Assembly: GCA_021463505.1 (NCBI GenBank)
Contig: JAJTYR010000019.1
Coordinates: forward strand, 1 to 62,927
Length of the DNA: 62,927 nt
From: Burkholderiaceae bacterium
GTDB lineage: Bacteria; Pseudomonadota; Gammaproteobacteria; Burkholderiales; Burkholderiaceae_E
Direction: 5' to 3'
Position numbers and translations under genes: made by a program. Each line of letters starts with the position of its first letter. Within the stretch, counting starts at the first letter, position 1. Positions 42,682 through 62,927 of the stretch are shown piece by piece. The notes below the pieces were generated by a model. It saw only the letters and a program-made list of their open reading frames with translations, ran no database searches and was not told where the DNA came from.

Positions 42682-42809
42682 GGGCCTCGCGCCTCCTCGC
42701 TTGCGCCGCCGTGATCGAGACTATAGCGATCGCGGCAGCGGCGCCGGCAGCGCCGGCCACGGTGACGCCGGCGCGGAACAGGCGGCAATCCCGCGGCCGA
42801 AAAACCCGC

Positions 42810-42847: not shown

Positions 42848-42918
42848 GTATCCAGAACACATTCGATCTTCGCATTCGGTCTTCGATTCCAGCCGCCACA
42901 GGCGGCGGAGGTGCCCCC

Positions 42919-43599: not shown

Positions 43600-43618
43600 C
43601 ACTCACCGGGAGGCCCCC

Positions 43619-44824
43619 ATGCCCTACAAGGCCCAGATCCCGTACGGCGCCTACTGGAGCACCCCGTTCGCGCGCTGGCAGGGCAGCTTCGCGAACCTGA
43701 ACAGCATCGAGTTCGCCGCGCACGTCGCGCGCGCCGAGCTTGCGAAGCGTCGCATCGACCCGAAGGTGCTCGACTACGGCGCGCTCGGCTTCTCGGTGCC
43801 GCAGAAGCACTCGTTCTACGGGCTGCCGTGGCTCACCGGCCTGATCGGCGCCGGGCACGTCGGCGGCCCCACGCTGATGCAGGCGTGCGCCACCGGCGTG
43901 CGCACGCTGCTGGCGGCCGCCCAGGAGATCGAGGTCGGCATGGCCAGCGTCGCGCTGGCGATCAATTGCGACCGCACCTCCAACGGCCCGCACCTGTACT
44001 ACCCCAATCCGCGCGGACCCGGTGGCACCGGCGTCGCCGAAGACTGGGTCATGGACAACTTCAACTGCGACCCGCTCGGCCCGCACGCGATGCTGGTCAC
44101 CGCCGAAAACGTCGCGAAGAAGCACGGCATCGCCACCGCTGCACAGCACGAAGTCGTGCTGCGCCGCGAGGAGCAGTACCGCGACGCGCTGGCCGACGGC
44201 GCGGCGTTCCTCGAGCGCTTCATGACCCTGCCCTTCGACGTGCCCGCGCCCGGCTATCGCAAGAGCGCCGGCACGCTCGAGGCCGACGAAGGCGTCTCGC
44301 GTTCCACGCCCGAAGGGCTGGCGCGGCTCGAGCCGGTGGCCAAGGGGGGCACGATCACCTTCGGCGGCCAGACCCACCCGGCCGACGGCAACGCGGCCAT
44401 CATCGTCACCAGCGCCGGGCGCGCGCGCGAACTCTCCAGCGACCCGAAGATCGCGGTGCGACTGCACGGCTTCGGGCTGGCGCGCGCGGCGCTCGCGCAC
44501 ATGCCCGAGGCAACGGTGCCGGCGGCGCAACGCGCGCTCGCGCAGGCCGGTCGGTCGATCTCGCAGATGGCGGCGATCAAGACGCACAACCCGTTCGCGG
44601 TCAACGACCTCTATTTCGCGAAGGAAACCGGCGCCGACCTGCGATCGATGAACAACTATGGCTGCTCGCTCGTCTGGGGCCATCCGCAGGCGCCGATGGG
44701 CACGCGCGCGATCATCGAGCTGATCGAGGAGCTCGCGATCCGCGGCGGCGGCTTCGGGCTGTTCACCGGCTGCGCCGCCGGCGACACCGCGATGGCGGTG
44801 GTGCTCGAGGTCGGCGACGCCTAG
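43619..44824 (+). CDS. Thiolase family protein (acyl-CoA acetyltransferase)
   Basis: Expected to cleave a 3-oxoacyl-CoA with CoA to a shortened acyl-CoA and acetyl-CoA (or propionyl-CoA). Of 401 residues, the nucleophile is C90 in LMQACATGVRTL, the base His is H355 in WGHPQAPMG, and the second cysteine C385 in FTGCAAGDTAM. Substrate-loop sequences differ from classical AtoB/FadA; for example, an insertion YYPNPRGPGGTG follows the nucleophile region, so a non-standard acyl group is possible. First enzyme gene of the operon, 19 bp after the regulator, 30 bp before the ligase. Confidence 0.88.
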   Translation: MPYKAQIPYGAYWSTPFARWQGSFANLNSIEFAAHVARAELAKRRIDPKVLDYGALGFSVPQKHSFYGLPWLTGLIGAGHVGGPTLMQACATGVRTLLAAAQEIEVGMASVALAINCDRTSNGPHLYYPNPRGPGGTGVAEDWVMDNFNCDPLGPHAMLVTAENVAKKHGIATAAQHEVVLRREEQYRDALADGAAFLERFMTLPFDVPAPGYRKSAGTLEADEGVSRSTPEGLARLEPVAKGGTITFGGQTHPADGNAAIIVTSAGRARELSSDPKIAVRLHGFGLARAALAHMPEATVPAAQRALAQAGRSISQMAAIKTHNPFAVNDLYFAKETGADLRSMNNYGCSLVWGHPQAPMGTRAIIELIEELAIRGGGFGLFTGCAAGDTAMAVVLEVGDA

Positions 44825-44854
44825 CGACGCGGCGAAGCGGCGGGGAGCGCGACG

Positions 44855-46408
44855 ATGCCGATGCACGCATGGATCCATCATCACGCCCGGCGCAGCCCCG
44901 GGCGGCTGGCGATCCGCTTTCCCGGCCGCGACTTCAGCTACGCGGCACTCGCGCAGCTGGTGGACCGCTACGCAGCGGCGATGACCGCCGCGGGCGTCCG
45001 GCGCGGCAGCTGCGTCGCGTACCTGGGCCTGAACAGTCCCGAAGAGATCGCGCTGCTGTTCGCCTGCGCGCGGCTGGGTGCGATGTTGCTGCCGCTGAAC
45101 TGGCGGCTGGCTGCGCCCGAGCACCGGCAGATCCTCGCCGATTGCCCGCCGTCGCTGCTGTTCGTCGAGCCGCAGTTCGTCGAACACGCCGGGGCGCTGC
45201 GCGCGTCAGTGGGTCCCGATTCGGCGATCACCTGGGGCCAGGCCGCGCCGGGCTGGATCGATTGCGACGCGTTCCTGTCGCGCGGCGGCGAGCCGCCCGC
45301 CGCGCTGGCCGCCCGCGCGGGCGCGATGCGCGAAGGCGACGCCGATGCCGGCACCCCGCTGCTCGTCTGCTACACCTCGGGCTCCACCGGCAAGCCCAAG
45401 GGCGTCGTGCTCACGCAGGAGGCCATCGCCTGGAACGCGCTGAACAGCGCGGCGATGCACGAGTTCACCGAAGACGACCGTGTCCTCACGACGCTGCCGT
45501 TGTTTCACGTCGGAGGGCTGAACAACCAGACCACGCCGGCGCTGCGTGCCGGCTGCACCGTGGTGCTGCATCCGAAGTTCGACGTCGAGGCCACCTTCGA
45601 CGCGATCGGGCGCGAGCGCATCACGCTCACCGTGCTCGTGCCCGCGCAACTCGAGGCGATGATCGCGCATCCGCGCTGGAACGGCGCCGACTTCTCCAGC
45701 CTGCGGATGATCACCACCGGCTCGATGATCGTGCCCGAGCGCCTGATCCGCGCCGTGCACGCGCGAAGCGTGCCGCTGGTGCAGGTCTACGGGGCCACCG
45801 AAACCTGCCCGATCGCGGCCTGTCAGCAGGCGCAGGACGCATTCCGAAAGGTCGGGTCGGCCGGCCGGGCCGCGGCGCACTGCGAGCTGCGCATCGTCGG
45901 CGACGACGGCCGCGATGTCGCGCAGGGCGCCACCGGCGAGATCCTGGTGCGCGGCCCTAACCTGATGAGCGGCTACTGGAACGCGCCGCAGGCCACCGCG
46001 GCGGTGCTGACGGACGGCTGGTTCCACACCGGCGACATGGGGCACCTCGACGTGGAGGGCTTCCTGTACGTCGACGGACGGCGCAAGGAGATGATCATCT
46101 CGGGCGGCGAGAACATCTATCCGGCCGAGATCGAGAACGTGCTCACCGAGTCGCCCGACATCGCCGAGGCGTCGGTGGTCGGCTGGCCCGACCGCCGCTG
46201 GGGCGAGATCGCGGTCGCAGTCGTGGCCCCGTGTCCTGGTCGGCGCCTCGACGAGACCACGGTGCTCGGCCTGCTCGAAGGCCGAATCGCCCGCTTCAAG
46301 CATCCGAAGCGGGTGCTCTTCGTCGATGCGCTGCCCAGGACGGCGCTCGGCAAGGTCCGTCGCGAGGAAGTGCGGCGCCTGGTCGCCGGCACTCCCGCCA
46401 TCGGCTGA
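44855..46408 (+). CDS. AMP-dependent acyl-CoA ligase
   Basis: ATP-dependent CoA ligase activating a carboxylic acid for the operon pathway; the substrate is unknown. ANL motifs: CYTSGSTGKPKGVVLTQ, TLPLFHVGGLNNQ, YGATETCPIAA and DGRRKEMIISGGENIYPAE, with the catalytic lysine in PRTALGKVRREE. The 517 residues match short- and medium-chain ligases. GGGGAG lies upstream of ATG 44855. It clusters by motif with FadD3/MenE-like ligases rather than acetate ligases. Co-transcribed with the thiolase and HyuA-like genes. Confidence 0.9.
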   Translation: MPMHAWIHHHARRSPGRLAIRFPGRDFSYAALAQLVDRYAAAMTAAGVRRGSCVAYLGLNSPEEIALLFACARLGAMLLPLNWRLAAPEHRQILADCPPSLLFVEPQFVEHAGALRASVGPDSAITWGQAAPGWIDCDAFLSRGGEPPAALAARAGAMREGDADAGTPLLVCYTSGSTGKPKGVVLTQEAIAWNALNSAAMHEFTEDDRVLTTLPLFHVGGLNNQTTPALRAGCTVVLHPKFDVEATFDAIGRERITLTVLVPAQLEAMIAHPRWNGADFSSLRMITTGSMIVPERLIRAVHARSVPLVQVYGATETCPIAACQQAQDAFRKVGSAGRAAAHCELRIVGDDGRDVAQGATGEILVRGPNLMSGYWNAPQATAAVLTDGWFHTGDMGHLDVEGFLYVDGRRKEMIISGGENIYPAEIENVLTESPDIAEASVVGWPDRRWGEIAVAVVAPCPGRRLDETTVLGLLEGRIARFKHPKRVLFVDALPRTALGKVRREEVRRLVAGTPAIG

Positions 46409-46425
46409 CAAAGGAGGAATTCCCC

Positions 46426-48567
46426 ATGGCCCTCGAGATCGGCATCGACGTCGGCGGCACCTTCACCGACTTCGTCGTCACCCGCGACGGCGCCGAGCCG
46501 GCGATCTTCAAGTCGCTGTCGACGCCGGCCGACCCGTCGATCGCGGTGGTCAACGGGCTGGCGGACATCGCGGCGAGCATGAATCCGCCGATGACGCTCG
46601 AGGCCTTCGCCCCGACGATCGACTCGATCGTGCACGGCACCACGGTGACCACCAACGCCACGCTCACGCACACCGGCGCGAAGTGCGGCCTGCTCACGAC
46701 GCAGGGCGTGCGCGACGCGCTCGAGATGCGCCGCGGCATCCGCGAGGAGCAATACAACAACCGCTACGCGAACGTGAAGCCGCTGGTGCCGCGCTACCTG
46801 CGCGCCGGCGTCCGGGGGCGCCTCGACCGGGTGGGCGCCGAGAGCGCGCCGCTCGACGTCGATGGCGTGCGCGAGGCGATCGAGCTGTTCCGGCGAGAGA
46901 ACGTGCAGGCGGTGGCGATCTGCTTCATGAACTCGTTCGCCAACCCGGTGCACGAGCGCGCGGCCGCCGGGATCGTCCGGCGCGCGTTGCCCGACGCCTG
47001 GCTGTCGGTCTCCACCGACCTGCTGCCGTCGATCCGCTTCTACGAGCGGGTGAGCACCACGGTGCTCAACGCATACGTCGGCCCGAAGCTGAACCACTAT
47101 CTCGACCAGCTGGTCGGGCGCCTGAAGGGAATCGGCTTCGGCGGGCTGCTGCTGATCATGCAGTCCAACGGCGGCGTGATCTCGCCCCAGCTGGCACGCG
47201 AGAAGGCGGCGCTCACGCTGCTGTCGGGACCGGCCGGCGGTCCGGGCGCAGGCCTCTTTTACGCACGCGCGCACGGCTTCGACAAGTGCATCACCACCGA
47301 TATGGGCGGCACCAGCTTCGAGGCGTCGGTCTCGGTGGGCGCGCCGATGATCAAGAACGACGGCGAGATCGCGCGCCACAAACTCGCGCTGCCGATGCTC
47401 GACATCCACACGATCGGCGCGGGCGGCGGCTCGATCGGCTGGCTCGACGAAGGCGGGCTGCTGCGCATGGGCCCGCAGAGCGCCGGCGCCGACCCGGGCC
47501 CGGCCTGCTACGGAAAGGGCGGCACGCTGCCCACCACCACCGACGCCAACGTCGTGCTGGGCTATCTCGACCCGGCCTTCTTCGCCGGCGGCAGGATGAA
47601 GCTCGACGCGGCCGCCGCGCGGGCTGCGATCGACGAGCACGTCGCGCGGCCGATGGGGCTGTCGGTCGAGGAGGCCGCGGCCGGCATGTACCGGGTCGCC
47701 TGCAACAACATGGCGCAGGGCGTGCGCGAAGTCACGATCAAGCGCGGCTTCGATCCGCGCGAGTTCCCGATCGTGCCGGCCGGGGGCGCCGGCCCGATCC
47801 ACTCCTGCCTGATCTGCCACGAACTCGGGATCCCGCTTCAGGTCGTGCCTCGCGAATCCTCGGTGCTGTGCGCGTTCGGCATGCTGATGAGCGAACTGAA
47901 GCACGACTTCGTGCGCACCTTCGTCGCGCGCCTCGAATCGCTCGACTGGACGAAGCTCGTCGGCATCGTCGATGCGATGGCGCGCGACGGCGCGACGCAA
48001 CTGGCCGAGGAGCGCATCCCCGAGGCGCGTCGCCGCTACGAAGTCAGGTTCGACTGCCGCTATATCCGCCAGTACCACGAGGTGTCGTTCCTCGTGCCGC
48101 GCGCGCTGATCGACGCGCGCGACGCATCCGGCATCGCACGCGCCTTCCACGCCGAGCACAACCGGCTCTACGGCTACTCGCTCGAGCAGGAGAACACGCC
48201 GATCGAGATCATCAACGTGCGCGTGCAGGCGATCGGCGCGGTCGACATGCCGGCCTACCGCAAGGACGAATGGTCCGGCGACGACGCCTCGCACGCACTG
48301 AAGGGCCGCCGCAGCGTCTACCTTCCCGAGACACGCGCCTTCGCCGAGGTGCCGATCTACGACGGGCACCGGATGCGCTTCGGCAACCGGATCGACGGCC
48401 CTGCGATGATCGAGCAGGCCACCACCGCGATCTTCGTGAGCGCCTCGTACGACTGCGTGGTCGACGCGCTGGGCTCGTTCGCCGTCTACCGCAAGGGGCG
48501 CGAGGACCTCTGCCGCGCGGCCTTCGGCCCCTCGACGCAGGCCGAGCCGGCCACGGTCGCCGCCTGA
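46426..48567 (+). CDS. Hydantoinase/oxoprolinase family subunit A (HyuA-like)
   Basis: ATP-binding subunit of a two-component ATP-dependent amidohydrolase or carboxylase. The 713 residues have the actin-like ATPase motifs IGIDVGGTFTDFVV (5-18), HGTTVTTNATL, TTDMGGTSFEASVS, and the conserved IGAGGGSIGWLD and GADPGPACYGKGGTLPTTTD. Relatives include 5-oxoprolinase, N-methylhydantoinase, caprolactamase and acetone/acetophenone carboxylases. No third small subunit such as acetone carboxylase gamma is present. AAAGGAGG lies eight bases before ATG 46426. It forms a pair with the next gene, 21 bp downstream. Reaction type cannot be decided from sequence. Confidence 0.88.
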   Translation: MALEIGIDVGGTFTDFVVTRDGAEPAIFKSLSTPADPSIAVVNGLADIAASMNPPMTLEAFAPTIDSIVHGTTVTTNATLTHTGAKCGLLTTQGVRDALEMRRGIREEQYNNRYANVKPLVPRYLRAGVRGRLDRVGAESAPLDVDGVREAIELFRRENVQAVAICFMNSFANPVHERAAAGIVRRALPDAWLSVSTDLLPSIRFYERVSTTVLNAYVGPKLNHYLDQLVGRLKGIGFGGLLLIMQSNGGVISPQLAREKAALTLLSGPAGGPGAGLFYARAHGFDKCITTDMGGTSFEASVSVGAPMIKNDGEIARHKLALPMLDIHTIGAGGGSIGWLDEGGLLRMGPQSAGADPGPACYGKGGTLPTTTDANVVLGYLDPAFFAGGRMKLDAAAARAAIDEHVARPMGLSVEEAAAGMYRVACNNMAQGVREVTIKRGFDPREFPIVPAGGAGPIHSCLICHELGIPLQVVPRESSVLCAFGMLMSELKHDFVRTFVARLESLDWTKLVGIVDAMARDGATQLAEERIPEARRRYEVRFDCRYIRQYHEVSFLVPRALIDARDASGIARAFHAEHNRLYGYSLEQENTPIEIINVRVQAIGAVDMPAYRKDEWSGDDASHALKGRRSVYLPETRAFAEVPIYDGHRMRFGNRIDGPAMIEQATTAIFVSASYDCVVDALGSFAVYRKGREDLCRAAFGPSTQAEPATVAA

Positions 48568-48588
48568 ACCCGACACGGAGCCATTGCC

Positions 48589-50277
48589 ATGAGCACCGCC
48601 GAATCCCGGAAGGTCGACCCGATCCTGCTGTCGGTCTACGCGCGCACCTTCCGCTCGATCACCGACGAGATGAGCATCTCGATGGAGCAGACGACCCGGT
48701 CGCCGATCCTCTGCGAGGCCAAGGACTACGTCACCGGCCTGTACGACGGCGACGGCAACATGCTCGAACAGACCGAGAACCTGCCGATCCTCGCCTTCTC
48801 GCTGGCGCCGGTGTGCAAGTACATCAAGGAGTACTTCGGCGACGAGATCTACCCGGGCGACGTGATCTTCCACAACGACGTGTTCAGCCTCGGCAACCAG
48901 AACAACGACGTCGCGGTGTTCAAGCCGGTCTTCCTCGGTGACAAGCTGGTCGCCTGGACCGCGGTGAAGGGTCACCAGGCCGACATCGGCGGCAACGTCG
49001 CGGGCGGCTACAACCCGAACGCGGTCGAGGTATGGCAGGAGGCGCTGCGCATTCCGCCGGTGAAAGTGGTCGAGCGCGGCAAGCTGCGTCGCGACGTCTG
49101 GAACCTGATCTTCGCCAACGTGCGGCTCGACATCGTGCAGCACGACATGAAGGCCGAGATGGGCGCGTGCACGATCGGCGAGCGGCGCATGCTCGAGCTG
49201 CTGGCCAAGTACGGGGTCGAGAGCTACGAGGCGCACAAGCAGGCACTGTTCGACGCCACGCGCCGCATGATGGAGGCCGAGATCGCGAAGATCCCGAACG
49301 GCCGCTATTCGGGCGAAGGCTACGTCTACTACGACGGCCGGCACGAGGGATCGAAGTTCACGATCCGCGTCGACATCGAAGTCGAAGACCGCAGGATCCG
49401 CTTCGACTACTCGCGCACCGACGCGCAGACCAACGGCTTCGTCAACGGCACCTTCACCTCGAGCGCGTCGGCCACGATCCTCACGCTGCTGCAGATGGTG
49501 AACCCCGACATCCCGCACAACGAGGGGATGGTGCAGCCGATCGAGATCGTGATCCCGGAAGGCACGATCCTGAACGCCGCCTACCCGAAGGCCACCACCT
49601 TCGGCAACCACCTGTGCCCGCCCAACGCCGACGCGATCCAGCGCGCGCTCGCGCCGGTGCTGCCCGACCGCGTCACCGCCGGCTGGAACAACCTGCTCGC
49701 CTCGCTGACCACCGGCATCGATCCGCGCACCGGGGAGAAATACGTCGACATCGGCTTCATGGGCCTGAAGGGCGGCTCGGGCGCGATGCTCGGCGCAGAC
49801 GGCTACGACCACATCGGCATGATCGACGCCTCCGGCGGCGTGCTCGACCAGGACTACGAAATGTTCGAGCAGCAGACGCCGCACACGCTGGTGCGCCACG
49901 AACTGCTCACCGACTCGGCCGGAGCGGGCCAGTGGCGCGGCGGGCTGGGCGTGGAGACGATCTTCGAGATCGGCTCGGACGACACGCAGCTGGTCACCTT
50001 CGGCGACGGCGACTTCGAGCCCGCCTTCGGCCTGTTCGGCGGCCGCGACGCGGGGCTGAACTTCATCCGCCTGCACTACCCGGACGGGCGCACCGTGGTG
50101 CCGAGAAACAAGGACCTGATCACCGGCGTTCCGAAAGGCACGGTCTACCACCAGGTGGCCAGCGGCGGCGGCGGCTACGGCGACCCGAAGAAGCGCGACC
50201 GCAAGGTGCTCGCCGAGGAGGTGCGCAACGGCGTGATCTCGGCCGGGGCGGCCCGCGAGCTGTACGGGCTGGACTGA
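48589..50277 (+). CDS. Hydantoinase/oxoprolinase family subunit B (HyuB-like)
   Basis: Catalytic partner of the HyuA-like protein; 562 residues. Family segments: VFHNDVFSLGNQNNDVAVF, AVKGHQADIGGNVAGGYNP, GACTIGERRMLELLAKYG, YVYYDGRHEGSKFTI and the C-terminal RGGLGVETIFEIGS and VASGGGGYGDPKKRD. In most HyuB proteins the first segment reads close to NDPYxGGTHxxD; here GGTH becomes LGNQ, so a metal-site or substrate residue may differ. ATG 48589 starts 21 bp after HyuA. The acyl-CoA dehydrogenase gene follows by 12 bp. Confidence 0.88.
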   Translation: MSTAESRKVDPILLSVYARTFRSITDEMSISMEQTTRSPILCEAKDYVTGLYDGDGNMLEQTENLPILAFSLAPVCKYIKEYFGDEIYPGDVIFHNDVFSLGNQNNDVAVFKPVFLGDKLVAWTAVKGHQADIGGNVAGGYNPNAVEVWQEALRIPPVKVVERGKLRRDVWNLIFANVRLDIVQHDMKAEMGACTIGERRMLELLAKYGVESYEAHKQALFDATRRMMEAEIAKIPNGRYSGEGYVYYDGRHEGSKFTIRVDIEVEDRRIRFDYSRTDAQTNGFVNGTFTSSASATILTLLQMVNPDIPHNEGMVQPIEIVIPEGTILNAAYPKATTFGNHLCPPNADAIQRALAPVLPDRVTAGWNNLLASLTTGIDPRTGEKYVDIGFMGLKGGSGAMLGADGYDHIGMIDASGGVLDQDYEMFEQQTPHTLVRHELLTDSAGAGQWRGGLGVETIFEIGSDDTQLVTFGDGDFEPAFGLFGGRDAGLNFIRLHYPDGRTVVPRNKDLITGVPKGTVYHQVASGGGGYGDPKKRDRKVLAEEVRNGVISAGAARELYGLD

Positions 50278-50289
50278 GGAGTTGCGTCG

Positions 50290-51423
50290 ATGGACTTCGA
50301 ACCGAGCGTCGAGCAGAAGGCGGTGCGCGACGCGTTCGCGCGCTTCGCCGACCAGCGGATCGCCCCGCAGGCCGCGGCGCTGGACGAAGCGCGCGCATTC
50401 CCGCGCGCGCTGTTCGGCGAACTGGCGGCGCTCGGCCTGTTCGGGATGCGCTATCCGGAGGAGGTCGGCGGCAGCGGCATGGCGCTCACCGAGTTCTGCC
50501 TGGCGCTCGAGGAAATCGCGCGCGGCTCGATGTCGCTGGCCGGCGCCGCGGCGATGCAGTCGCTGATGGGCACCAAGTTCCTGCACATGCTGGGTAACGC
50601 CGACATCGTCGAGCGGCTGTTCAAGCCGGCGCTCGCCGGCGAGAAAATCGGCGCGATCTGCATGACCGAGCCCGACGCGGGCTCCGACCTCGGCTCGATC
50701 GCCACCGTCGCGAAGAAGGTCGACGGCGGCTACCTGCTCGACGGGCAGAAGACCTGGATCACCTCGGCGCCGGTGGCCGACTTCTTCACCGTCTTCGCGC
50801 GCGCAGGCGAGGAGAAGAAACTCACGATCTTCCTTGTCGAGAAGCATTTCGCGGGCATCACGGTCGGGCGCGAGATCCACAAGATGGGAGTCTGGGCGCT
50901 GCCGACCTCGGAAGTCGCGTTCTCGGGCTGCTTCGTTCCCGACAGCCACCGGCTGTCGAAGGAAGAAGGCGACGGCGAGGCCCACCTGCGCAAGACGCTG
51001 GCCGAGATCCGCATCATCACGGGTGCGATGGCGCTGGGCGTGGCGCGTGCCGCGCTGGCCGAGGCGGTGCGCTACGCGGGCGAGCGCAAGCAGTTCGGCA
51101 AGCCGATCGACCGCTTCCAGGCGATCCAGATGAAGCTCGCCGGGATGGCCACGGGGCTGGAAGCCGCGACGCACCTGGTGCGCTACGCCGCCTGGCTGCG
51201 CGACTCCGGGCGCCCGCATCACAAGGAAGCGGCGATGTGCAAGCTCTTCGCCACCGAGACCGCCGCCGGCATCTGCGACCAGGCCGCGCGCGTGCTGGCC
51301 TCGTACGGCTACGCGATGGAATACCCGGTGCAGCGCTACCTGCGCGACGTGCGCTTCACGCTGATCGGCGGGGGCACCAGCGAAATCCTGAAACTGATCA
51401 TCGCCAAGGAGGTCACCTCATGA
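50290..51423 (+). CDS. Acyl-CoA dehydrogenase, isovaleryl-type active site
   Basis: FAD enzyme introducing a 2,3-double bond into an acyl-CoA and passing electrons to ETF. The 377 residues have the flavin/substrate motifs CMTEPDAGSDLGSIAT and GQKTWITSAP, and the C-terminal RDVRFTLIGGGTSEI. The canonical base Glu of short/medium-chain enzymes (YEGTS) is Gly (G361). E239 in LAEIRIITGA sits where isovaleryl-CoA and long-chain dehydrogenases place their base. This arrangement suggests a branched or bulky acyl group. ATGA overlap (51420-51423) with the B12 subunit gene. Confidence 0.9.
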   Translation: MDFEPSVEQKAVRDAFARFADQRIAPQAAALDEARAFPRALFGELAALGLFGMRYPEEVGGSGMALTEFCLALEEIARGSMSLAGAAAMQSLMGTKFLHMLGNADIVERLFKPALAGEKIGAICMTEPDAGSDLGSIATVAKKVDGGYLLDGQKTWITSAPVADFFTVFARAGEEKKLTIFLVEKHFAGITVGREIHKMGVWALPTSEVAFSGCFVPDSHRLSKEEGDGEAHLRKTLAEIRIITGAMALGVARAALAEAVRYAGERKQFGKPIDRFQAIQMKLAGMATGLEAATHLVRYAAWLRDSGRPHHKEAAMCKLFATETAAGICDQAARVLASYGYAMEYPVQRYLRDVRFTLIGGGTSEILKLIIAKEVTS

Positions 51424-51848
51424 GCGTCGTTGCAGGCCTCGCGCCACGACATCCGCAGCAGCGCCGGATCAAGGTCCTGCTCGCCAAGCCCGGCCTCGAC
51501 GGCCACGACCAGGGGGCGAAGGTGGTCGCGCGCGCGATGATGGATGCCGGCTTCGAAGTCATCTACACCGGGCTGCGGCAAACGCCCGAGGCGGTCGCAC
51601 GCATGTCGCTGGAGGAGGACGTCGACGTGATCGCGCTCTCGAGCCTGGCGGGTTCGCACCTGCCGTTCTGCCGCAAGCTGAGGACGCTCCTCGAAGCCAA
51701 CGGGCTCACCGACAAGCTCTGGCTGATCGGCGGCAACCTGCCTGCGCAGGACCACGACGAACTGCGCTCGCTGGGCTTTCGCGGCGTGTTTCCCACCGGC
51801 TCGAAGCTCGATGCGATCGTCGACTGCATCCGTGCGGAGGTGAAATGA
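51420..51848 (+). CDS. Cobalamin-binding small subunit of an acyl-CoA mutase
   Basis: A 142-residue Rossmann-like B12 domain. The cobalamin-ligand motif DxHxxG is in AKPGLDGHDQGAKV, so the cofactor binds base-off/His-on. The dimethylbenzimidazole pocket residues are in ALSSLAGSHLPF and WLIGGNLPAQD. It corresponds to the C-terminal domain of single-chain methylmalonyl-CoA mutase and to HcmB of 2-hydroxyisobutyryl-CoA mutase. It is translationally coupled at both ends: ATGA with the dehydrogenase and ATGA (51845-51848) with the large subunit. Confidence 0.93.
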   Translation: MSVVAGLAPRHPQQRRIKVLLAKPGLDGHDQGAKVVARAMMDAGFEVIYTGLRQTPEAVARMSLEEDVDVIALSSLAGSHLPFCRKLRTLLEANGLTDKLWLIGGNLPAQDHDELRSLGFRGVFPTGSKLDAIVDCIRAEVK

Positions 51849-53458: not shown

Positions 53459-53507
53459 AAGACATGAAACATTGCGACTTGAACCATTTCGCAGTCGGGA
53501 GCGATTC

Positions 53508-54843: not shown

Positions 54844-57200
54844 ACAGGCGCGCCACCCCTTCCCCCATCGTGAAGCAGTCCCTGATCGGCCAGCGGGTGA
54901 GGAAACCCGACGCACCCGACAAGGCAACCGGCAAGACGCGCTACATCAACGACATGGTGTTGCCGCAGATGCTGATCGGCAAGGTGCTGTTCGCCGGCCG
55001 CCCGCACGCGCGGATCGTGCGCATCGACACCGAGGCAGCGCGCAGGCTGCCCGGCGTGCACGCGGTGCTCACCGGCAAGGACGCCGCCGGCCTGAAGTTC
55101 GGTTTCGTGCGCGACAACGTCGCGCTCAAGGACAAGGCGCGCTGCGCGCACGACGAGATCGCCGCGGTCGCGGCCGAAACCGAAGAGATCGCCGCCCGCG
55201 CGCTCACGCTGATCGAAGTCGACTACGAGGACCTGCCCGGTGTGTTCACGCCGGAGGCCGGCGCCCGGGAAGGTGCCCCGCAGATCCACGAGGACTTCCC
55301 CGGCAACCGGAGCCTGCGCTTCGAGTTCGAGCACGGCGATCTCGCGGCTGCCGAAGCCGCCTCGGACTTCGTCGTCGACAGCGTGTTCCGGCCGCACCAC
55401 GTGACGCACTGCTGCATGGGCACGTCGTGCGCGATCGCCGACTTCGACCACAACGGCAAGCTGACGATCTGGACGCAGACCCAGTACCCGTACAACTACA
55501 AGATGGACCTGGCGCCGGCGCTGGGGATCGATCCGGGCGACATCCGGGTCATCCAGCCGCCCGTCGGCGGCGCCTTCGGCTCCAAGCTCGACGTCTACCC
55601 CTACGAACCGATCGCCGCGCTGCTGGCAAGGAAGACCGGCCGCCCGGTCAAGGTCACCTACACGCGCGAGGAGGAATTCACGGCCTCGCCCACGCGCCAG
55701 GCCGCGATCATCCACATGCGCACCGGCTGCACCCGCGACGGCGTGCTCACCTTCCGCAGCGCCGACGTGCTGCTGGACAACGGCGCCTGCACCTCGTGGG
55801 GACCGACGATCCCGGTCATCATGATGCGCACCACCTCCGGTCACTATCGCGTGCCGGTGGTCCGGTTCGAGGCGCAGGCGATCTACACCAACAACCCCTA
55901 TGCCGGATCGTTCCGCGGATACGGCAACGTCCAGACCACCTGGGCCACCGCGCAGCAGATGGACATGCTCGCTGAAATGGTCGACACGGATCCACTGGCG
56001 TTCCACCTGAAAAACGCCCAGGTATCGGGCGAGACCACGCCGCAGAAATCGTTCCTGCGCGAATGCGCCTTCGTCGAATGCCTGGAAACCGCCGCCAGGG
56101 CGAGTGACTACAGCCACAAACGCGAGACGTACGCGGCGCTGCGCGACGCACCGGGACGCTACAGGAAGGGCATCGGCCTCGCCTCGTCGATCCACAACGC
56201 CGGCGGCGCCAAGATCCACAAGTCGGACGGGATCGGCACGATCCTGAAGGTGGACGACTACGCGCGGGTCACGGTCATCACCGGTGCCTCCGAGATCGGC
56301 CAGGGCATCGACGCGGTGATCACGCTGATCGTGGCCGAGGAACTGGGCGTGCCGCTCGAGCACGTGACCCTCGTCAACAACGATTCCGACATCGCGCCGT
56401 GGGACGTGGGCGTGCATGCCTCGCGCACCACCTTCATCGCGGGCAACGGCGCGCGTCGTGCCGCGTGCAAGGCGAAGTCGCAGATCCTGAACGGCGCCGC
56501 GAAATTCGTCGAGGAATCTGCCTCGAACCTGGACCTGCGTGGCGGCTGGGTCGTACGCGCCAGCGACGGCACGCCGCTGATCAAGCTCGAGCGCCTGCTG
56601 CGCCAGATGCATTTCCAGGCCGAACCGGAACTCGTGATGGTCACCGACTATTACGAACCAAACAGCGAACCCGAAGGCGCCAGGCACGTCTCCGACCACT
56701 CGGCCGCCTACGCCCACGCCGTGCACGTCGCCGAAATCACCGTGGACACGCTCACCGGCGAAATCAAGGTGGACAAGGTGACGGTTGTGCAGGACGTCGG
56801 CCGCGTCATCAACCGGATGGGCCTGGAGGGCCAGATCGAAGGCGGCATTGCGATCGGGCTCGGCTACGCGATCAGCGAGGACATGCGCATCGAGAACGGC
56901 ATGCTGAAAAACCCGTCGTTCCGCGATTACAGGCTGATCACGGCGCCCGAGATGCCGGAGCTCGAGATGCACTTCATCGAGAGCGACTGCGCCGAGGGCC
57001 CCTATGGCGCCAAGGGCGTTTCCGAGCTGCCGACGATCGTGATCGCGCCGGCCATTGCCAACGCGCTGTACAACGCCACGGGCGTGCGCATCTTCGATCC
57101 ACCGATGTCGCCCGAGAAGGTCGCGCGGGCCATTCACGAGAAGCGGGCAGCCGCAGCGGCCGGCGGGGCCACCGCCCGGCGCGAGAGCGTGACGGTCTGA
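54840..57200 (+). CDS. Molybdenum hydroxylase large (molybdopterin-binding) subunit
   Basis: Catalytic subunit (786 residues) of a cytoplasmic xanthine-oxidase-family hydroxylase, using water to hydroxylate an electron-poor carbon. N-terminal 'hammerhead' domain GKTRYINDMVLPQMLIGKVL; Mo-cofactor motifs VGGAFGSKLDVYP, SFRGYGNVQ, TGASEIGQGID and the base Glu in GPYGAKGVSELPTI. In the first substrate-channel segment the usual MEP-like sequence is THCCMGTSCAIA, without the Glu, so specificity is unusual. Reductive 4-hydroxybenzoyl-CoA reductase is an alternative, made less likely by the FAD subunit. The MoaD-like gene follows by 6 bp. Confidence 0.93.
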   Translation: MNRRATPSPIVKQSLIGQRVRKPDAPDKATGKTRYINDMVLPQMLIGKVLFAGRPHARIVRIDTEAARRLPGVHAVLTGKDAAGLKFGFVRDNVALKDKARCAHDEIAAVAAETEEIAARALTLIEVDYEDLPGVFTPEAGAREGAPQIHEDFPGNRSLRFEFEHGDLAAAEAASDFVVDSVFRPHHVTHCCMGTSCAIADFDHNGKLTIWTQTQYPYNYKMDLAPALGIDPGDIRVIQPPVGGAFGSKLDVYPYEPIAALLARKTGRPVKVTYTREEEFTASPTRQAAIIHMRTGCTRDGVLTFRSADVLLDNGACTSWGPTIPVIMMRTTSGHYRVPVVRFEAQAIYTNNPYAGSFRGYGNVQTTWATAQQMDMLAEMVDTDPLAFHLKNAQVSGETTPQKSFLRECAFVECLETAARASDYSHKRETYAALRDAPGRYRKGIGLASSIHNAGGAKIHKSDGIGTILKVDDYARVTVITGASEIGQGIDAVITLIVAEELGVPLEHVTLVNNDSDIAPWDVGVHASRTTFIAGNGARRAACKAKSQILNGAAKFVEESASNLDLRGGWVVRASDGTPLIKLERLLRQMHFQAEPELVMVTDYYEPNSEPEGARHVSDHSAAYAHAVHVAEITVDTLTGEIKVDKVTVVQDVGRVINRMGLEGQIEGGIAIGLGYAISEDMRIENGMLKNPSFRDYRLITAPEMPELEMHFIESDCAEGPYGAKGVSELPTIVIAPAIANALYNATGVRIFDPPMSPEKVARAIHEKRAAAAAGGATARRESVTV

Positions 57201-57206
57201 GCGGGA

Positions 57207-57458
57207 ATGAAGCTGAAGTACTTCGCCTGGCTGCGCCACAGCATGGGATGCGAATCGGAGAGCATCGCCCTGCCCGGCGAGATCAGGAACGTGGGCATGC
57301 TGCTCGACTGGCTTGCGACCCGCGACGAGCGCTTCAGGCATGCCTTCGACTACATCGACGTCGTGCTGGTCTCGGTAAACGACGTATATGCGAATCGCGA
57401 CCACCCGGTGCGCGACGACGACGAAGTCGTTCTGGCCCCGCCGATCGCGGGCGGCTGA
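57207..57458 (+). CDS. MoaD/ThiS-family sulfur carrier protein
   Basis: Beta-grasp ubiquitin-like protein of 83 residues: KLKYFAWLRHSMGCES at the start and the C-terminal LAPPIAGG, whose Gly-Gly end is adenylated and thiocarboxylated by MoeB/ThiF-type enzymes. This is the pattern of molybdopterin synthase small subunit (MoaD). Lying directly after the molybdenum hydroxylase subunits, it probably supports cofactor synthesis for that enzyme, as a specialised extra copy; no MoaE is present nearby. A ThiS role is less likely in this context. Confidence 0.88.
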   Translation: MKLKYFAWLRHSMGCESESIALPGEIRNVGMLLDWLATRDERFRHAFDYIDVVLVSVNDVYANRDHPVRDDDEVVLAPPIAGG

Positions 57459-57503
57459 GGAGAGCGTCTTGAGTTCCCACCGTATCGACGAGGGCCTGTC
57501 CGC

Positions 57504-58694
57504 ATGAGACGCCGCACGGTTCTCTCGATGGAGCAGGCGCTGTCGCTGCCTTCGGCGACGCTGCGCTTCGCGCAGCTCGGCTGGCGCGTGATCCGCATCG
57601 AGTCCACGCCCACCGGCGCCGGGCTGCCCGGCGACCCGAACCGCTACATCGGCGCGCGCGTGGTCGACGACGACCGGCGCAGCTATTTCGTGGCGCCCAA
57701 CGTCGGCAAGGAAGCCATCGCGCTGAATCTGAAGGACGAGCGCGGCCGGCGGGTATTGCAGCGGCTGATCCGCGGACTGGACGTCGACGTGTTCTGCTGC
57801 AACACGGTGCCCTCGCGCTACCGCGCGCTGGGCATCGACTACGAGACGCTCTCGGCGGTCAAGCCCGACCTGATCTGGGCCGGCGTCTCGGCGATGGGCC
57901 CCGCGTATCCGGATGCGCCCGGCTACGACCCGGTGATGCAGGCGATGGTCGGCTACATGGAGGTCACCGGCGACCCCGGCGGGCCGCCAATGCTCGCCGG
58001 CATCCCGGTGATCGACCTGAAGGCGGGCGACGAGGTCTACGCCAACGTGATGGCGGCGCTGCTCGAGCGCCACGAGACGGGCCGCGGCACGCGCATCGAT
58101 GTCTCGATGCTGCAGGCGGCGGCATCCTGGCTGACCACGGTGCTGCCGCTGGTCGACTTCGGCTGCCAGCCCAACGAGATCACCCGCGCCGGCAACGAAC
58201 ACCGCAAGTTCGTCCCGACCAACGTCTACCCGACCCGCGACGGCTACGTGTTCCTCGCGATCGGCAGCGACGTGCAGTGGCGCCGGCTCACGAGCATTCC
58301 CAGGTTCGCGTCGGTCGCCAACGAGGCACGCGCAACCAATGAGGGACGCCACCGCGAACGTGAGGCCATCCACCGCGGGATGGCAGCGGTCACGCGCCAG
58401 CACAGCGCCGACGAGATCCTCGCCGACCTGCGTGCCGCCACGATCCCGGCCACGCGCATCCTCGACATCCGGCAGGTACGGGAATTGCCCCAATTGCGCG
58501 ACAAGCTCACGCGCACCACGATGCCCGACGGCCGGGTGGTGCACATGCAGCCGATGGCGGTCGACGTCGCCGGCGCGCGCGCCGACCTGTCGTTTGCGCC
58601 GCGCTACGGTGCCGACACCTTCCGCATTCTGGGCGAGGCCGGCTATCCCGGCGACGAGCTTCAGGCACTGCGCGGCGCGGGGGTGATTGCCTGA
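57504..58694 (+). CDS. Class III CoA-transferase (CaiB/BaiF family)
   Basis: Transfers CoA between acyl-CoA and a free acid without ATP; 396 residues. Family regions: [20 protein letters not shown] (N-terminal Rossmann part), [46 protein letters not shown] (expected catalytic Asp) and [20 protein letters not shown]. The N-terminus is a few residues shorter than relatives, which usually read like PLEGVTVLS. ATG 57504 overlaps the stop of a 12-codon TTG frame (57469-57507) with GAGGAGA upstream, so translation may be coupled, or the frame may be a displaced N-terminus. Confidence 0.9.
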
Positions 58695-58755
58695 GCCGCT
58701 GCGCGCGTTCCAGCCGTCGTACCACCCCCGAACCGGCCCGCTCCCGGAGGAATCC

Positions 58756-60771
58756 GTGACCACGACCTTCTCCAATCCGCTGCTGCAAGCCCCTGCACAC
58801 CCGCTGCCGAAACACGTGGCGATCATCGGTGCCGGCTCGATCGGCCCGGACATCGGCTACTACCTGAAGAGCGCGCTGCCGTCGCTGTCGCTCACGCTGG
58901 TCGACCTGCAGCAGCCGGCGCTCGATGCGGCGATCGCGCGACTGCGCGGCTACGCGGAGAAGGCGGTCGCGCGCGGCAAGATGCAGTCCGCCGACAAGGA
59001 CGCCGTGCTGGCCCGCATCACCGGCACGACCGACTACGACGCGATCGCCGGATGCGACTGGGTGCTCGAGGCGGCCACCGAGAACCTCGCGCTCAAACGC
59101 CGGATCTTCGCCGAGGTCGAAGCGCGCGTGGCACCCGGCGCGATCATCACGTCGAACACGAGCTCGCTGCCGGCTGCACGTATCTTCTCCGGGTTGCGCG
59201 AGAGGCGGCGCGCCACGGTCACGCACTTTTTCGCGCCTGCCTGGCGCAACCCGGCGGTCGAGGTGATCGACTGGCCGGGCGCCGATCCCGCGCTCGTTGC
59301 CCACCTGAGGCGCCTGTTCTGCGAGACCGGCAAGCTGCCGCTGGTCACGGCGGATGCGCCCTGCTTCATGCTCGACCGGATCTTCGACAACTGGTGCAAC
59401 GAGTCGGCGCTGCTGCTCGACCGGGCGACCGCCGCCGAGATCGACAGCGTCGCGGCCGACTACGTGCACGCCGGGCCGTTCTTCGTGCTGAACCTGGCGC
59501 GCGGCAACCCGATCATCGTCGAGACCAACACGCTGCAGGCCGACGAAGAGGGCGAGCACTACCGGCCGGCGTCGATCTTCCGCTCGGTGGACAACTGGAT
59601 CACGGTCAAGCCGAACCAGCGGCTCGAGGTCGCGCCCGACACGGCGGCGGCGGTGCGCGACCGCCTGCTCGGCGTGCTGTTTTCGCAATCGGTGGACATC
59701 CTCGATCGCGGGATCGGCGAGGCGGCCGACCTCGACCTGGGCTGCCGCGTGGCGCTCGGCTTCCGGCGCGGCCCGCTCGAGCTGATGCGCGCGCTCGGCG
59801 AGCAGGAGGGCGCGCGCGTGCTCGGGCGCTTCGCGCGCGAGCGGCCCGGCATGCCGATGCCGAAGCGCCCGCTCGCCGACTACCAGCGCTTCGAGCGCCA
59901 CGTGCTGGTGGACGACCTCGACGGGGTCAAGGTGATCACGCTGCGGCGCCCCGAGGCGCTGAACGCGCTGCACGACGAGATGACCGACGAGATTCTCGGC
60001 GTGATCCGCCGCCACGAGGGCGACGATGACGTCGCGGGCTTCGTCATCACCGGTTACGGCACGCGGGCGTTCTGCGCGGGCGCCGACATCGGGCGGTTTC
60101 CATCGATGCTCGGCGACGCCGACGCGTCGGCGCAATACGCGCGTGATTGCTCGCGCCTGCTCGTGCACCTCGACGCGATGGCCAAGCCCGTGGTCGCCGC
60201 GCTCAACGGCATGGCGCTGGGCGGTGGCTTCGAACTCGCGATGCGCTGCCACGCGCTGGTGGCGACGCGCGATGCGTGGATGCAGCTGCCCGAGGTGACG
60301 CTGGGCATCCTTCCCGGCATCGGCGCGATGGTGGTGCCCTACCGGCGCTGGCCCGCGGCCGCCACGGTGTTCCACGACATGCTGCGCCGTGGCGAGCGAC
60401 TGGCAGCAGCGCGTGCGCACGAACTCGGCGTCGTCGATCTGCTGGCCGACGACCCGCGATCACTGGTGCTCGAGGCAGCGCAGCGGGTGCGAAAGCTCGC
60501 CGGCCGGCGCACGCCGATTCCCGATCGCCCGGTCGCGATCCCGCCGTTCCCGGGAGACGCGCCGTCCGCTGCCGGTGGCATGGCGCTCAGCCGCAACACC
60601 GTGGCGCTGATCGAGCGCGCGGTGCGCGAGGCGGCCGCGGCGCCCACGCTCGCGGCAGCGCTCGAGATCGGCTACCGCGCATTCGGCGCGAGCGCCTGCA
60701 CCGCGGCAGCGCGCGAAGGGATTGCCGCCTTTCACGAGCGGCGTGCGCCCGATTTCACGACGACCGGCTGA
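58756..60771 (+). CDS. Fused 3-hydroxyacyl-CoA dehydrogenase/enoyl-CoA hydratase
   Basis: A 671-residue bifunctional protein with the dehydrogenase at the N-terminus and hydratase at the C-terminus, the reverse of FadB. NAD motif HVAIIGAGSIGPDIGYYL; catalytic His in THFFAPAWRNPAVEV (usual FFNP replaced by FFAP); SNTSSLP for substrate. The crotonase domain from about residue 400 has RRPEALNALHDEMT, FCAGADIGRF, the first Glu in ALGGGFELAMR and the second in QLPEVTLGILPGIG, so the hydratase appears active. This order is known in archaeal hydroxypropionate-hydroxybutyrate-cycle enzymes and some bacterial catabolic clusters. GTG 58756 with GGAGGA five bases upstream. Confidence 0.92.
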   Translation: MTTTFSNPLLQAPAHPLPKHVAIIGAGSIGPDIGYYLKSALPSLSLTLVDLQQPALDAAIARLRGYAEKAVARGKMQSADKDAVLARITGTTDYDAIAGCDWVLEAATENLALKRRIFAEVEARVAPGAIITSNTSSLPAARIFSGLRERRRATVTHFFAPAWRNPAVEVIDWPGADPALVAHLRRLFCETGKLPLVTADAPCFMLDRIFDNWCNESALLLDRATAAEIDSVAADYVHAGPFFVLNLARGNPIIVETNTLQADEEGEHYRPASIFRSVDNWITVKPNQRLEVAPDTAAAVRDRLLGVLFSQSVDILDRGIGEAADLDLGCRVALGFRRGPLELMRALGEQEGARVLGRFARERPGMPMPKRPLADYQRFERHVLVDDLDGVKVITLRRPEALNALHDEMTDEILGVIRRHEGDDDVAGFVITGYGTRAFCAGADIGRFPSMLGDADASAQYARDCSRLLVHLDAMAKPVVAALNGMALGGGFELAMRCHALVATRDAWMQLPEVTLGILPGIGAMVVPYRRWPAAATVFHDMLRRGERLAAARAHELGVVDLLADDPRSLVLEAAQRVRKLAGRRTPIPDRPVAIPPFPGDAPSAAGGMALSRNTVALIERAVREAAAAPTLAAALEIGYRAFGASACTAAAREGIAAFHERRAPDFTTTG

Positions 60772-60846
60772 GAGATCGCCTGGCACGACTACCACCGCGC
60801 CCCGCACCGCCGTGTCCGTGACCGCTCGCCACCCGGGAGCAGACCG

Positions 60847-60900
60847 ATGAAGTTCCGCCTCGCGATCCGCAGCCCTCGCACGCACCGAAGACCCGCATGA
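60847..60900 (+). CDS. Short leader ORF coupled to the LivH-type permease gene
   Basis: A 17-codon frame, [17 protein letters not shown], preceded by GGGAG eight bases upstream of its ATG. Its TGA overlaps the permease ATG (ATGA, 60897-60900), so ribosomes finishing it could re-initiate on the permease. Five of 17 residues are arginine. It may be a coupling leader, or simply the relic of a deleted gene start. No function is claimed. Confidence 0.4.
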
Positions 60901-61934
60901 ACCTGCAGATCACCATGCTGCTGGCCCAGGACGGCATCACCAATGGTGCAATCTACGCGCTGCTCGCGCTGGCACTGGTGCTGGTGTTCGCGGTCACACG
61001 GGTGATCTTCATCCCGCAGGGAGAATACGTCGCACTGGGTGCGCTCACGCTGGCGAGCCTGCAGGCGGGCCGCATGCCCGGCACCGTCTGGCTGCTGCTG
61101 GGGGCCGGAGCGCTGATCACCGCCATCGAGGTGACCATCGCTGCACGCAGCGGCAGGCGCCGCGGCCTCGCCTCCGTGGCCGGCTGGAACCTCGCGTACC
61201 CGGCCGCCGCGGCGCTCGCGGTCACAGTGCTCGACGTGCGCAGCCTGCCACTGACGGCGCAGATCGGTCTCGCGCTGATCCTGGTCGTGCCGCTGGGGCC
61301 GATGGTCTATCGACTCGCCTTCCAGCCGCTGGCGCATGCCTCGGTGCTGGTACTGCTGATCGTAGCGGTGGCGGTGCACTTCGCGCTGGTCGGACTGGCG
61401 CTGCTCATCTTCGGCGCCGAAGGTTCGCGCACGCAGCCGTTCACCGATGCGCGCTTCGATCTCGGCATCGTGTCCGTCAACGGGCAGGCGCTGTGGGTGG
61501 TGGGCGCCTCGATCGCGCTGATCGTGCTGCTGTACCTGTTCTTCGAGCGCACGATCTACGGCAAGGCGTTGCGTGCCACCGCGATGCACCGCACCGGAGC
61601 CCGGCTGATGGGCATCCCCACGGTGCTGGCGGGCAAGCTGTCGTTCCTGCTGGTGGCGCTGATCGGCGCGCTGTCGGGAATCCTGGTCGCGCCGCTCACC
61701 ACGATCTACTACGACACGGGCTTCCTCATCGGCCTGAAGGGATTCGTCGGAGCGATCGTCGGCGGCCTCGCGAGCTATCCCGCCGCGGCAGCCGGGGCCC
61801 TGCTGGTGGGCCTGCTCGAATCGTTCTCGTCGTTCTGGGCCTCGGCGTTCAAGGAGGTGATCGTCTTCACGCTGATCATCCCGGTCCTGCTGTGGCGTTC
61901 GCTCGCCACACGCCGCCTCGACGAGGAGGAATGA
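60897..61934 (+). CDS. Branched-chain-type ABC transporter permease (LivH-like)
   Basis: Inner-membrane permease of the hydrophobic amino-acid/organic-acid uptake family, 345 residues. About nine hydrophobic helices. The N-terminus [21 protein letters not shown] with [14 protein letters not shown] is typical LivH, as are [19 protein letters not shown] (EAA-like loop) and [20 protein letters not shown] longer loop near residues 75-105 is unusual. In catabolic clusters such transporters often carry aromatic or other carboxylic acids instead of leucine. Start overlaps the leader ORF stop. Confidence 0.9.
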
Positions 61935-62927
61935 TGCCGCGCGCGCCGCTGCTCGCCTTCGTCGCCGTGCTCGCGCTCGGTCCGTTCGTGCTTCCCGAAT
62001 TCCACGTCACGCTGCTCAATTACATCGGACTGTATGCGCTGGTGGCGCTGGGCCTGGTGCTGCTCACCGGGGTGGCCGGGTTGACCTCGTTCGGCCAGGC
62101 GGCTTTCGTGGGCCTGGGCGCCTACGCGAGCGCGTGGCTGAGCACCACGTCGGCGCTGCCCGGCTGGCTCGCATGGGCCGGCGGCTCGCCGTGGATCGGC
62201 CTGGCGCTGGGGCTGGCGCTGACCACGATCGTGGCGTGGGTGCTGGGTGCGCTGACCCTGAAGCTGTCGGGCCACTATCTGCCACTGGGCACGATCGCCT
62301 GGGGCATCAGCATCTACTTCCTGTTCGGCAACCTCGGCTTCCTGGGCGGCCACACCGGCATCACCGGAATTCCGGCACTGCGGCTGGCCGGCCTCGACAT
62401 CCGCGAGTCGCGCGACTTCTACTTCCTGATCTGGCTGGTCCTGCTCGCGGCGATGTGGTTCACGCGCAACCTGCTCGATTCACGCGAGGGGCGTGCCATC
62501 CGCGCGCTCCGGGGCGGCGCCCTGATGGCCGAAGCCATGGGCGTGGATACGGCGCGTGCGAAGATGATCGCCTTCCTCGTCGCCGCGCTCCTGGCCGCCG
62601 TCTCGGGCTGGCTGTATGCACACATGCAGCGCTTCATCAATCCCAATCCGTTCAGCCTGAACCTGGGCATCGAGTACCTGTTCATGGCGGTGGTCGGCGG
62701 CGCAGTCAGCGTCTGGGGCGCGCTCCTGGGCGCCGGCCTGATCACGCTGCTGAAGCAGTGGCTGCAGGAACTGCTTCCGGCGATCTTCGGCGCCTCGGGA
62801 AACTTCGAAGTGATCGTGTTCGGCGTCATGATGGTGCTGTTGCTGCAGCGCGCGCCCGAAGGCCTGTGGCCGATCATCGCGCGCCGGGTGCCGGCGGCCC
62901 GCAATCGCGCACGCCCCCGCCCGGCGG
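61934..62927 (+). CDS. Branched-chain-type ABC transporter permease (LivM-like), partial
   Basis: Second permease of the uptake system; about 331 residues are visible and the frame is open at the window end. Several membrane helices are seen. LivM-type segments: NYIGLYALVALGLVLLTGVA, GLTSFGQAAFVGLGAYASAW, the EAA loop SREGRAIRALRGGALMAEAM with GVDTARAKMIAFLVAA, and YLFMAVVGGAVSVWGALLGA. ATG 61934 overlaps the LivH stop by one base (TGATG) and has GAGGAGG upstream; ATG 61931 is adjacent. The tail after RAPEGLWPII is Arg-rich, so a fused ATPase domain may follow outside the window. Confidence 0.9.
   Translation, partial: MPRAPLLAFVAVLALGPFVLPEFHVTLLNYIGLYALVALGLVLLTGVAGLTSFGQAAFVGLGAYASAWLSTTSALPGWLAWAGGSPWIGLALGLALTTIVAWVLGALTLKLSGHYLPLGTIAWGISIYFLFGNLGFLGGHTGITGIPALRLAGLDIRESRDFYFLIWLVLLAAMWFTRNLLDSREGRAIRALRGGALMAEAMGVDTARAKMIAFLVAALLAAVSGWLYAHMQRFINPNPFSLNLGIEYLFMAVVGGAVSVWGALLGAGLITLLKQWLQELLPAIFGASGNFEVIVFGVMMVLLLQRAPEGLWPIIARRVPAARNRARPRPA

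Follow-up and report, generated by a model that had tools for sequence, protein, structure and literature searches.

Which compound is degraded by the long plus-strand gene run that closes contig JAJTYR010000019.1 of a Burkholderiaceae bacterium (GenBank assembly GCA_021463505.1), and is the pathway that it encodes a new one? The stretch of DNA analyzed here (the window, 62,927 nucleotides) is the entire contig, called C32, whose end cuts the last gene of that run, the second permease gene. A preliminary description of this DNA listed genes for a thiolase, a coenzyme A (CoA) ligase, a HyuA/HyuB pair, an acyl-CoA dehydrogenase, a two-subunit B12 mutase, a three-subunit molybdenum (Mo) hydroxylase with a MoaD-like protein, a class III CoA-transferase, a dehydrogenase/hydratase fusion, and Liv-type permeases behind a GntR regulator, and held that no pathway uses all of these families together. 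Based on homology and gene order, we conclude with high confidence that the run at 42919-62927 is an iaa operon, which would carry out the oxygen-independent degradation of indole-3-acetate (auxin) by the steps proposed below. The predicted substrate, indole-3-acetate, is settled by homology. The pathway itself is already described from denitrifying bacteria, and the member found here has a variant first-enzyme module.

Identity of the gene run

Profile searches of the window proteins recover every family listed above, on the plus strand and where the preliminary description had placed them, with a GntR/FCD gene directly before position 43619. Distances between neighboring genes range from -20 to +125 bases, which agrees with the short gaps and overlaps described. 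Internal terminators had been named as something that would argue against a single operon; no plus-strand terminator-like site is present in 42600-62500, where the five sites found are all on the minus strand (7.0 are expected by chance). The one plus-strand promoter-like site, at 42810-42838, is no more than chance would provide (1.2 expected). Genes of this same cluster served to train the codon-usage gene caller, so its calls are not independent evidence for them.

From the GntR regulator to the CoA-transferase, the gene order is identical to that of a cluster in the genome of Aromatoleum aromaticum EbN1, and outside the Mo hydroxylase the encoded proteins are 65-92% identical. A. evansii KB740 shows the same order in each of its two clusters (L040 and L045). 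An anaerobic pathway to 2-aminobenzoyl-CoA and the iaa locus have been identified in these two organisms (PMC9613470; this and the other papers are cited from excerpts of their text). The EbN1 genome was recognized by means of the published iaaF primers. Within the genus to which A. evansii KB740 belongs, the core of the forward primer matches 2 of 17 genomes, namely G450 and the A. buckelii genome G448, and this primer has no match in a sample of 399 genomes from the order. Genome G450 carries both published primer sites at the ends of a 377-amino acid gene, together with a HyuA protein of 707 and a HyuB protein of 564 amino acids, and is almost certainly A. aromaticum EbN1. These are also the lengths given for IaaC (707) and IaaE (564) in PMC8453981, which supports the iaa assignment.

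The grouping of these genes is conserved far beyond chance. Loci were picked solely by mutase similarity, as the best 80 of 351 mutase relatives in one scan of species genomes, which covers near relatives only, and each neighbor was counted only where the flank is long enough. Beside the mutase are found the GntR gene (51 of 54 loci), thiolase (53/54), CoA ligase (51/54), HyuA (55/55), HyuB (59/60), acyl-CoA dehydrogenase (67/67), the small mutase subunit (78/78), the FAD, iron-sulfur (FeS), and Mo subunits of the hydroxylase (73/73, 72/72, and 64/64), and the CoA-transferase (59/60). The dehydrogenase/hydratase fusion gene is present in only 18 of 57 loci. This conserved order supports a single CoA-dependent catabolic pathway, as had been proposed. 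Mutases with at least 77% identity occur in 12 of 101 genomes (the window's own and 100 relatives; a hand count that includes its own), and the 324 records returned by a plasmid search with the mutase are all below 60% identity.

Several points weigh against identification as an iaa operon. The Mo hydroxylase is of another type, only 48-58% identical to the EbN1 subunits. The host assembly is in 120 contigs. In addition, published IaaF accepted only oxygen among the electron acceptors tried (PMC8360864). The alternative offered by the preliminary description is a new pathway that combines these families. Every family that it named is present; however, the same set occurs in the same order in the described iaa locus, and the indoleacetate pathway does use all of these families together (PMC8360864, PMC9613470), which makes a new pathway extremely improbable. 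With the run identified as an iaa operon, there is no longer an undescribed pathway to explain, and auxin degradation of the anaerobic type can be placed in Lautropia-like Burkholderiaceae, the nearest named record to the window being Lautropia sp. SCN 69-89.

Table 1. Predicted genes of the run, with percent identities to the EbN1 counterparts.
Predicted product	Position	Strand	Evidence
GntR/FCD regulator, TTG start	42919..43599	+	Pfam GntR and FCD over cut-off; 65%, same place in EbN1
Thiolase, presumably IaaA from its position	43619..44824	+	Pfam thiolase domains; 79%
CoA ligase, IaaB-like (indoleacetate-CoA ligase)	44855..46408	+	Pfam AMP-binding; 68%
HyuA-type subunit, IaaC-like (lactam opening)	46426..48567	+	Pfam hydantoinase A; 83% to 707-amino acid protein
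HyuB-type subunit, IaaE-like	48589..50277	+	Pfam hydantoinase B; 92% to 564-amino acid protein
Acyl-CoA dehydrogenase, IaaF (decarboxylating benzylmalonyl-CoA dehydrogenase)	50290..51423	+	86% to IaaF; GGG motif
B12-binding small mutase subunit (IaaG or IaaH)	51420..51848	+	TIGR00640 over cut-off; 86%
Large mutase subunit (the other of IaaGH)	51845..53458	+	TIGR00641 over cut-off; 88%; Gly-rich loop
Mo hydroxylase FAD subunit, type 1	53508..54374	+	Xanthine-dehydrogenase FAD-subunit models, below equivalog cut-offs; 48%
Mo hydroxylase FeS subunit, type 1	54355..54843	+	2Fe-2S subunit models, below cut-offs; 58%
Mo hydroxylase large subunit, type 1	54840..57200	+	Pfam MoCoBD_1/2, Ald_Xan_dh_C; 54%
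MoaD/ThiS-family sulfur carrier, C-terminal GG	57207..57458	+	Pfam ThiS; beside type 1 hydroxylases only
Class III CoA-transferase, IaaL-like	57504..58694	+	Pfam CoA_transf_3; 71%
3-Hydroxyacyl-CoA dehydrogenase/enoyl-CoA hydratase fusion, probable IaaP	58756..60771	+	Pfam 3HCDH, ECH; GTG start placed by relatives
LivH-type permease	60897..61934	+	Pfam BPD_transp_2
LivM-type permease half of permease-ATPase gene, cut by contig end	61931..62927	+	Pfam BPD_transp_2

Proposed reactions and sequence marks

We infer that the orthologs encoded in the window perform the same reactions as the EbN1 enzymes. Indole-3-acetate would presumably be taken up by the ABC importer and then be converted by the CoA ligase to indoleacetyl-CoA. 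The Mo hydroxylase would place a water-derived oxygen onto C2 of the indole ring, a step that the type 1 enzyme encoded here (see below) is predicted to perform, and the HyuAB pair would use ATP to open the lactam, giving (2-aminophenyl)succinyl-CoA. Once the CoA-transferase has shifted CoA onto the other carboxylate, the B12 mutase would form (2-aminobenzyl)malonyl-CoA, which IaaF would oxidize and decarboxylate to 2-aminocinnamoyl-CoA. The hydratase/dehydrogenase fusion and the thiolase would be expected to yield acetyl-CoA and 2-aminobenzoyl-CoA, and the latter would enter the benzoyl-CoA pathway, whose genes lie in another part of the genome. Much of the chemistry suggested in the preliminary description is retained in this scheme, including the N-heterocyclic acid, its activation with CoA, Mo hydroxylation, ring opening by HyuAB, the B12 mutase, and the thiolase. 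Its suggestion that HyuAB might act as a carboxylase is not.

For EbN1, the IaaF reaction was shown with benzylmalonyl-CoA instead of the true substrate, the activities of IaaB and IaaL are cited from earlier work, and the mutase step is part of the proposed pathway (PMC8360864). According to the same source, A. aromaticum grows nearly equally well on indoleacetate whether or not oxygen is present. Thus, the pathway need not be solely anaerobic here.

IaaF is marked by GGG where other acyl-CoA dehydrogenases have YEG (PMC8360864). The window protein carries GGGTSE at this site, and GGG is present in all 75 sequences with at least 90% coverage when the 80 loci, EbN1, and the window are examined. 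Two other acyl-CoA dehydrogenases that we met have YEG and YGG at this position. The C-terminus reads IAKEVTS in the window and IAKEVSS in EbN1. The HyuAB pair is best read as opening a lactam rather than as a carboxylase, because it is 83% and 92% identical to the EbN1 IaaC/IaaE pair, which is described as the hydrolase of the 2-oxoindoleacetate ring (PMC8453981, PMC5214803).

In the large mutase subunit, a Gly-rich loop takes the place of HCQTAAA in the solved 2-hydroxyisobutyryl-CoA mutase and of HSQTSGW in the solved methylmalonyl-CoA mutase. This loop pattern is found in 77 of 82 mutases, the remaining five deviating only before the glycines, and it may give space for an aryl substrate. 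A second motif, RQYAGF, is matched in 65 of the 82, and the claim made for it concerns the window protein only.

Two types of molybdenum hydroxylase

The hydroxylases of these loci fall into two types, defined by identity to the window Mo subunit of at least 68% (type 1) or at most 60% (type 2). Among 85 sequences (the 80 loci, the window, EbN1, and three short loci), 25 are type 1, 49 are type 2, one is unclassed, and 10 have no Mo-subunit match. EbN1 and both KB740 copies are of type 2, and A. buckelii is of type 1. A MoaD gene follows the hydroxylase in 18 of the 25 type 1 loci and in none of the 49 type 2 loci. Three of the seven type 1 loci without it (L049, L053, and L069) are cut or odd, while four alphaproteobacterial loci (L086, L091, L097, and L101) truly carry no MoaD gene there.

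Between EbN1 (type 2) and A. buckelii (type 1), identity is 97-99% for HyuA, HyuB, acyl-CoA dehydrogenase, mutase, and CoA-transferase, yet only 52-57% for the three hydroxylase subunits. At the DNA level, the flanking aligned blocks are 88-95% identical and the Mo gene 69%, with the left block extending into the hydroxylase and the border not pinned. Because near pairs have near-identical neighbors but differing hydroxylases, the hydroxylase block seems to be exchanged among bacteria as one piece, and recombination in the flanks would be the simplest route.

Phylogenies of the same loci were also compared, using quick trees of near relatives made with no bootstrap. The tree of neighboring genes (HyuB, acyl-CoA dehydrogenase, and the mutase subunits) has 57 rows, 20 of type 1 and 37 of type 2, two of them from KB740; of the 74 typed loci, 17 had genes too short to be included. 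On this tree the hydroxylase type changes at least 13 times, and 11 of these changes are forced by well-supported branches. Shuffled labels average 16.6-16.7 changes; among 500 shuffles, 9 (for the type 2 row) or 17 (for the type 1 row) reach a value as low. The tree of the Mo subunit itself has a single type change, with support of 100.

Two other explanations for this pattern were considered. Both types could derive from an old duplication, having stood side by side and then been lost differently in each lineage, with no exchange between strains. Counts of type changes cannot separate gain from loss, and the types are well separated, at the support of 100 noted above, both of which would suit such a history. 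However, a type 2 query of six genomes found none with both types, and in near pairs the neighboring genes are near-identical while the hydroxylase differs, and therefore we regard differential loss as unlikely. It might also be argued that the cluster acts on some related indolic or N-heteroaromatic acid, such as a ring-substituted auxin, with the type 1 enzyme setting the substrate range and the later enzymes being ordinary Iaa proteins. The hydroxylase block alone departs from EbN1, MoaD accompanies type 1 only, and the two types have different fixed residues at 79 positions of the large subunit. In contrast, 299 fixed positions are shared, the two types are 51-59% identical to each other whereas no further hit in the six searched genomes exceeds 37%, and HyuB, the acyl-CoA dehydrogenase, the mutase, and the CoA-transferase are nearly the same in EbN1 and A. 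buckelii. A different substrate is therefore judged quite unlikely.

With exchange of the block as the preferred history, the enzyme at the entry of the pathway appears to exist in two exchangeable forms, and results obtained with the EbN1 form are thus not simply transferable to the other. A broader proposal is possible, though doubtful. The first step might be modular, with two old interchangeable hydroxylase cassettes, one with its own MoaD, that are swapped by recombination in conserved flanks and alter the range of substrates, the form of the cofactor, or the electron acceptor used with auxin-like compounds, and with a MeaB-XdhC fusion protein (see below) tending both the mutase and the hydroxylase. 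We recognized no description of the two hydroxylase types among the titles and abstract openings found, a search that leaves most subscription papers outside and has little bearing on novelty.

Adjoining genes, host genome, and relation to known systems

The cluster seems to continue from C32 onto another contig of the same assembly, C102. In a relative (G009), the last gene encodes a 600-amino acid permease-ATPase fusion whose second half matches the end of C102 at 90%. After this ATPase half, C102 encodes LivF, a binding protein, and a 1191-amino acid protein (89, 94, and 90% identical to G009, respectively). The last of these (L127:4175-7750), which adjoins the importer genes, belongs to the indolepyruvate ferredoxin oxidoreductase family (1699 bits; cut-off 952). 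Such enzymes convert indolepyruvate to indoleacetyl-CoA, a product that fits the iaa assignment. At least part of this gene is found in 21 of the 80 loci, 31 of the 80 having at least 4.8 kb after the CoA-transferase gene, and no copy was found within the 30 kb examined around the EbN1 cluster. Additional genes are also present in Lautropia SCN 69-89 (G014), where an octopine-dehydrogenase-like protein, a 3HCDH protein, a second Liv importer, and a second CoA ligase are encoded between the CoA-transferase and fusion genes (L113:5793-14224), perhaps suggesting a wider substrate range.

The other strand of C102 encodes a 372-amino acid fusion of MeaB and XdhC_CoxI, followed by an XdhC_C protein (L127:2313-4117). 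The EbN1-like genome has a MeaB-XdhC fusion too (376 amino acids, 73% identity), likewise with an XdhC_C protein after it, about 11 kb beyond the CoA-transferase gene (L128:693-2536). By hand counts at the E-value limit of the search, over the 101 genomes, both fusion parts lie at one place in 9 of the 12 genomes with the mutase (interrupted in G005; not in G015, G029, or G069) and in one of the 89 without it (G002). That genome has the importer, indolepyruvate oxidoreductase, and MeaB-XdhC genes with no iaa core beside them (L133), and its best mutase hit is 45%. A second candidate fusion, in G010, proved to be MeaB with a thioesterase domain. In the four-contig assembly of G005, the frames of the ligase, acyl-CoA dehydrogenase, and MeaB-XdhC genes are interrupted (L132, L135), which may be sequencing error. 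It is possible that the MeaB-XdhC fusion assists both the B12 mutase and the Mo hydroxylase, which would tie care of the mutase to Mo-enzyme maturation. No paper naming both MeaB and XdhC was found in the literature searched, which excludes most subscription papers and so says little about novelty.

The host is most likely a denitrifier able to use aromatic acids without oxygen, given its predicted Bcr/Oah/Had and Nar/Nos genes. BcrC, BcrB, BcrA, BcrD, Oah, and Had of the benzoyl-CoA reductase pathway all score over cut-offs on its contig C26, and C60 encodes two subunits of a second reductase-like set, under cut-offs. NarH, NarI, NosZ, and NosD are over cut-offs, and NosR and ApbE are under. 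The window itself contains a nos-type block for nitrous oxide reduction on the minus strand (30503-39388), in which NosZ and NosD exceed their cut-offs, the NosR-like and ApbE-like proteins fall below theirs, and an ABC ATPase lies between.

A benzoate-CoA ligase family gene in the window (21419-23032, plus strand; 384.6 bits, cut-off 375.25) shares 61% identity with a ligase located about 3 kb past the CoA-transferase in one KB740 iaa cluster, and is possibly a 2-aminobenzoate-CoA ligase. Beside one of the two iaa clusters of A. evansii KB740 lies an operon-like block (L130:3717-11781) encoding a ligase, acyl-CoA dehydrogenase, hydratase, short-chain dehydrogenase/reductase, and 773-amino acid monooxygenase/reductase-like fusion, which would suit aerobic use of 2-aminobenzoyl-CoA. 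Contig C99 of the host encodes a 791-amino acid fusion similar to salicylyl-CoA 5-hydroxylase (1088 bits; cut-off 1078), 48% identical to the 773-amino acid counterpart, which lies at most 14 kb downstream of the KB740 cluster.

Several known systems resemble parts of the run, but readings of it as serving caprolactam, ketone carboxylation, 2-hydroxyisobutyrate, or 4-hydroxybenzoyl-CoA were rejected because of score cut-offs, gene content, and residues. The likeness of HyuAB to caprolactamase CapAB and to the ATP-dependent ketone carboxylases (Apc/Acx) is one of membership in the hydantoinase/ketone carboxylase family. CapA and CapB score 683 and 389 bits against NCBIfam equivalog cut-offs of 1000, and the Apc models fall far below cut-off. 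Acetophenone and acetone carboxylases have further subunits besides alpha and beta (PMC5214803), whereas these expected extra subunits are missing from the run, where only hyuA and hyuB occur and the acyl-CoA dehydrogenase gene is directly next. The best solved relative of the large mutase subunit is 2-hydroxyisobutyryl-CoA mutase (4r3u_A), and the small subunit is separate in both; however, the window protein has RQYAGF rather than RQIAGF, AFDLPT rather than DFDMPT, and the Gly-rich loop instead of HCQTAAA. The Ile of RQIAGF and the Asp of DFDMPT have a role in substrate choice. For the Mo subunit of the hydroxylase, a xanthine-oxidase-family enzyme, the best solved relative is 4-hydroxybenzoyl-CoA reductase (1rm6_A), which likewise has three subunits, but the large subunit scores 566 bits against a cut-off of 994.55 and the FAD subunit 98.8 against 404.55.

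Relative to the iaa loci of EbN1 and KB740, the window has Liv-type permease genes adjoining and a type 1 hydroxylase with MoaD in place of type 2. The EbN1 counterpart of the dehydrogenase/hydratase fusion gene (69-73% identity; partial in the stretch compared) is divergent, on the other strand upstream, as is that of KB740 (L129), whereas in the window this gene lies inside the run. Finally, EbN1 has a truncated iaaD gene (PMC8360864) in a gap of about 200 bases, whereas the corresponding gap in the window is 21 bases and has no space for it.

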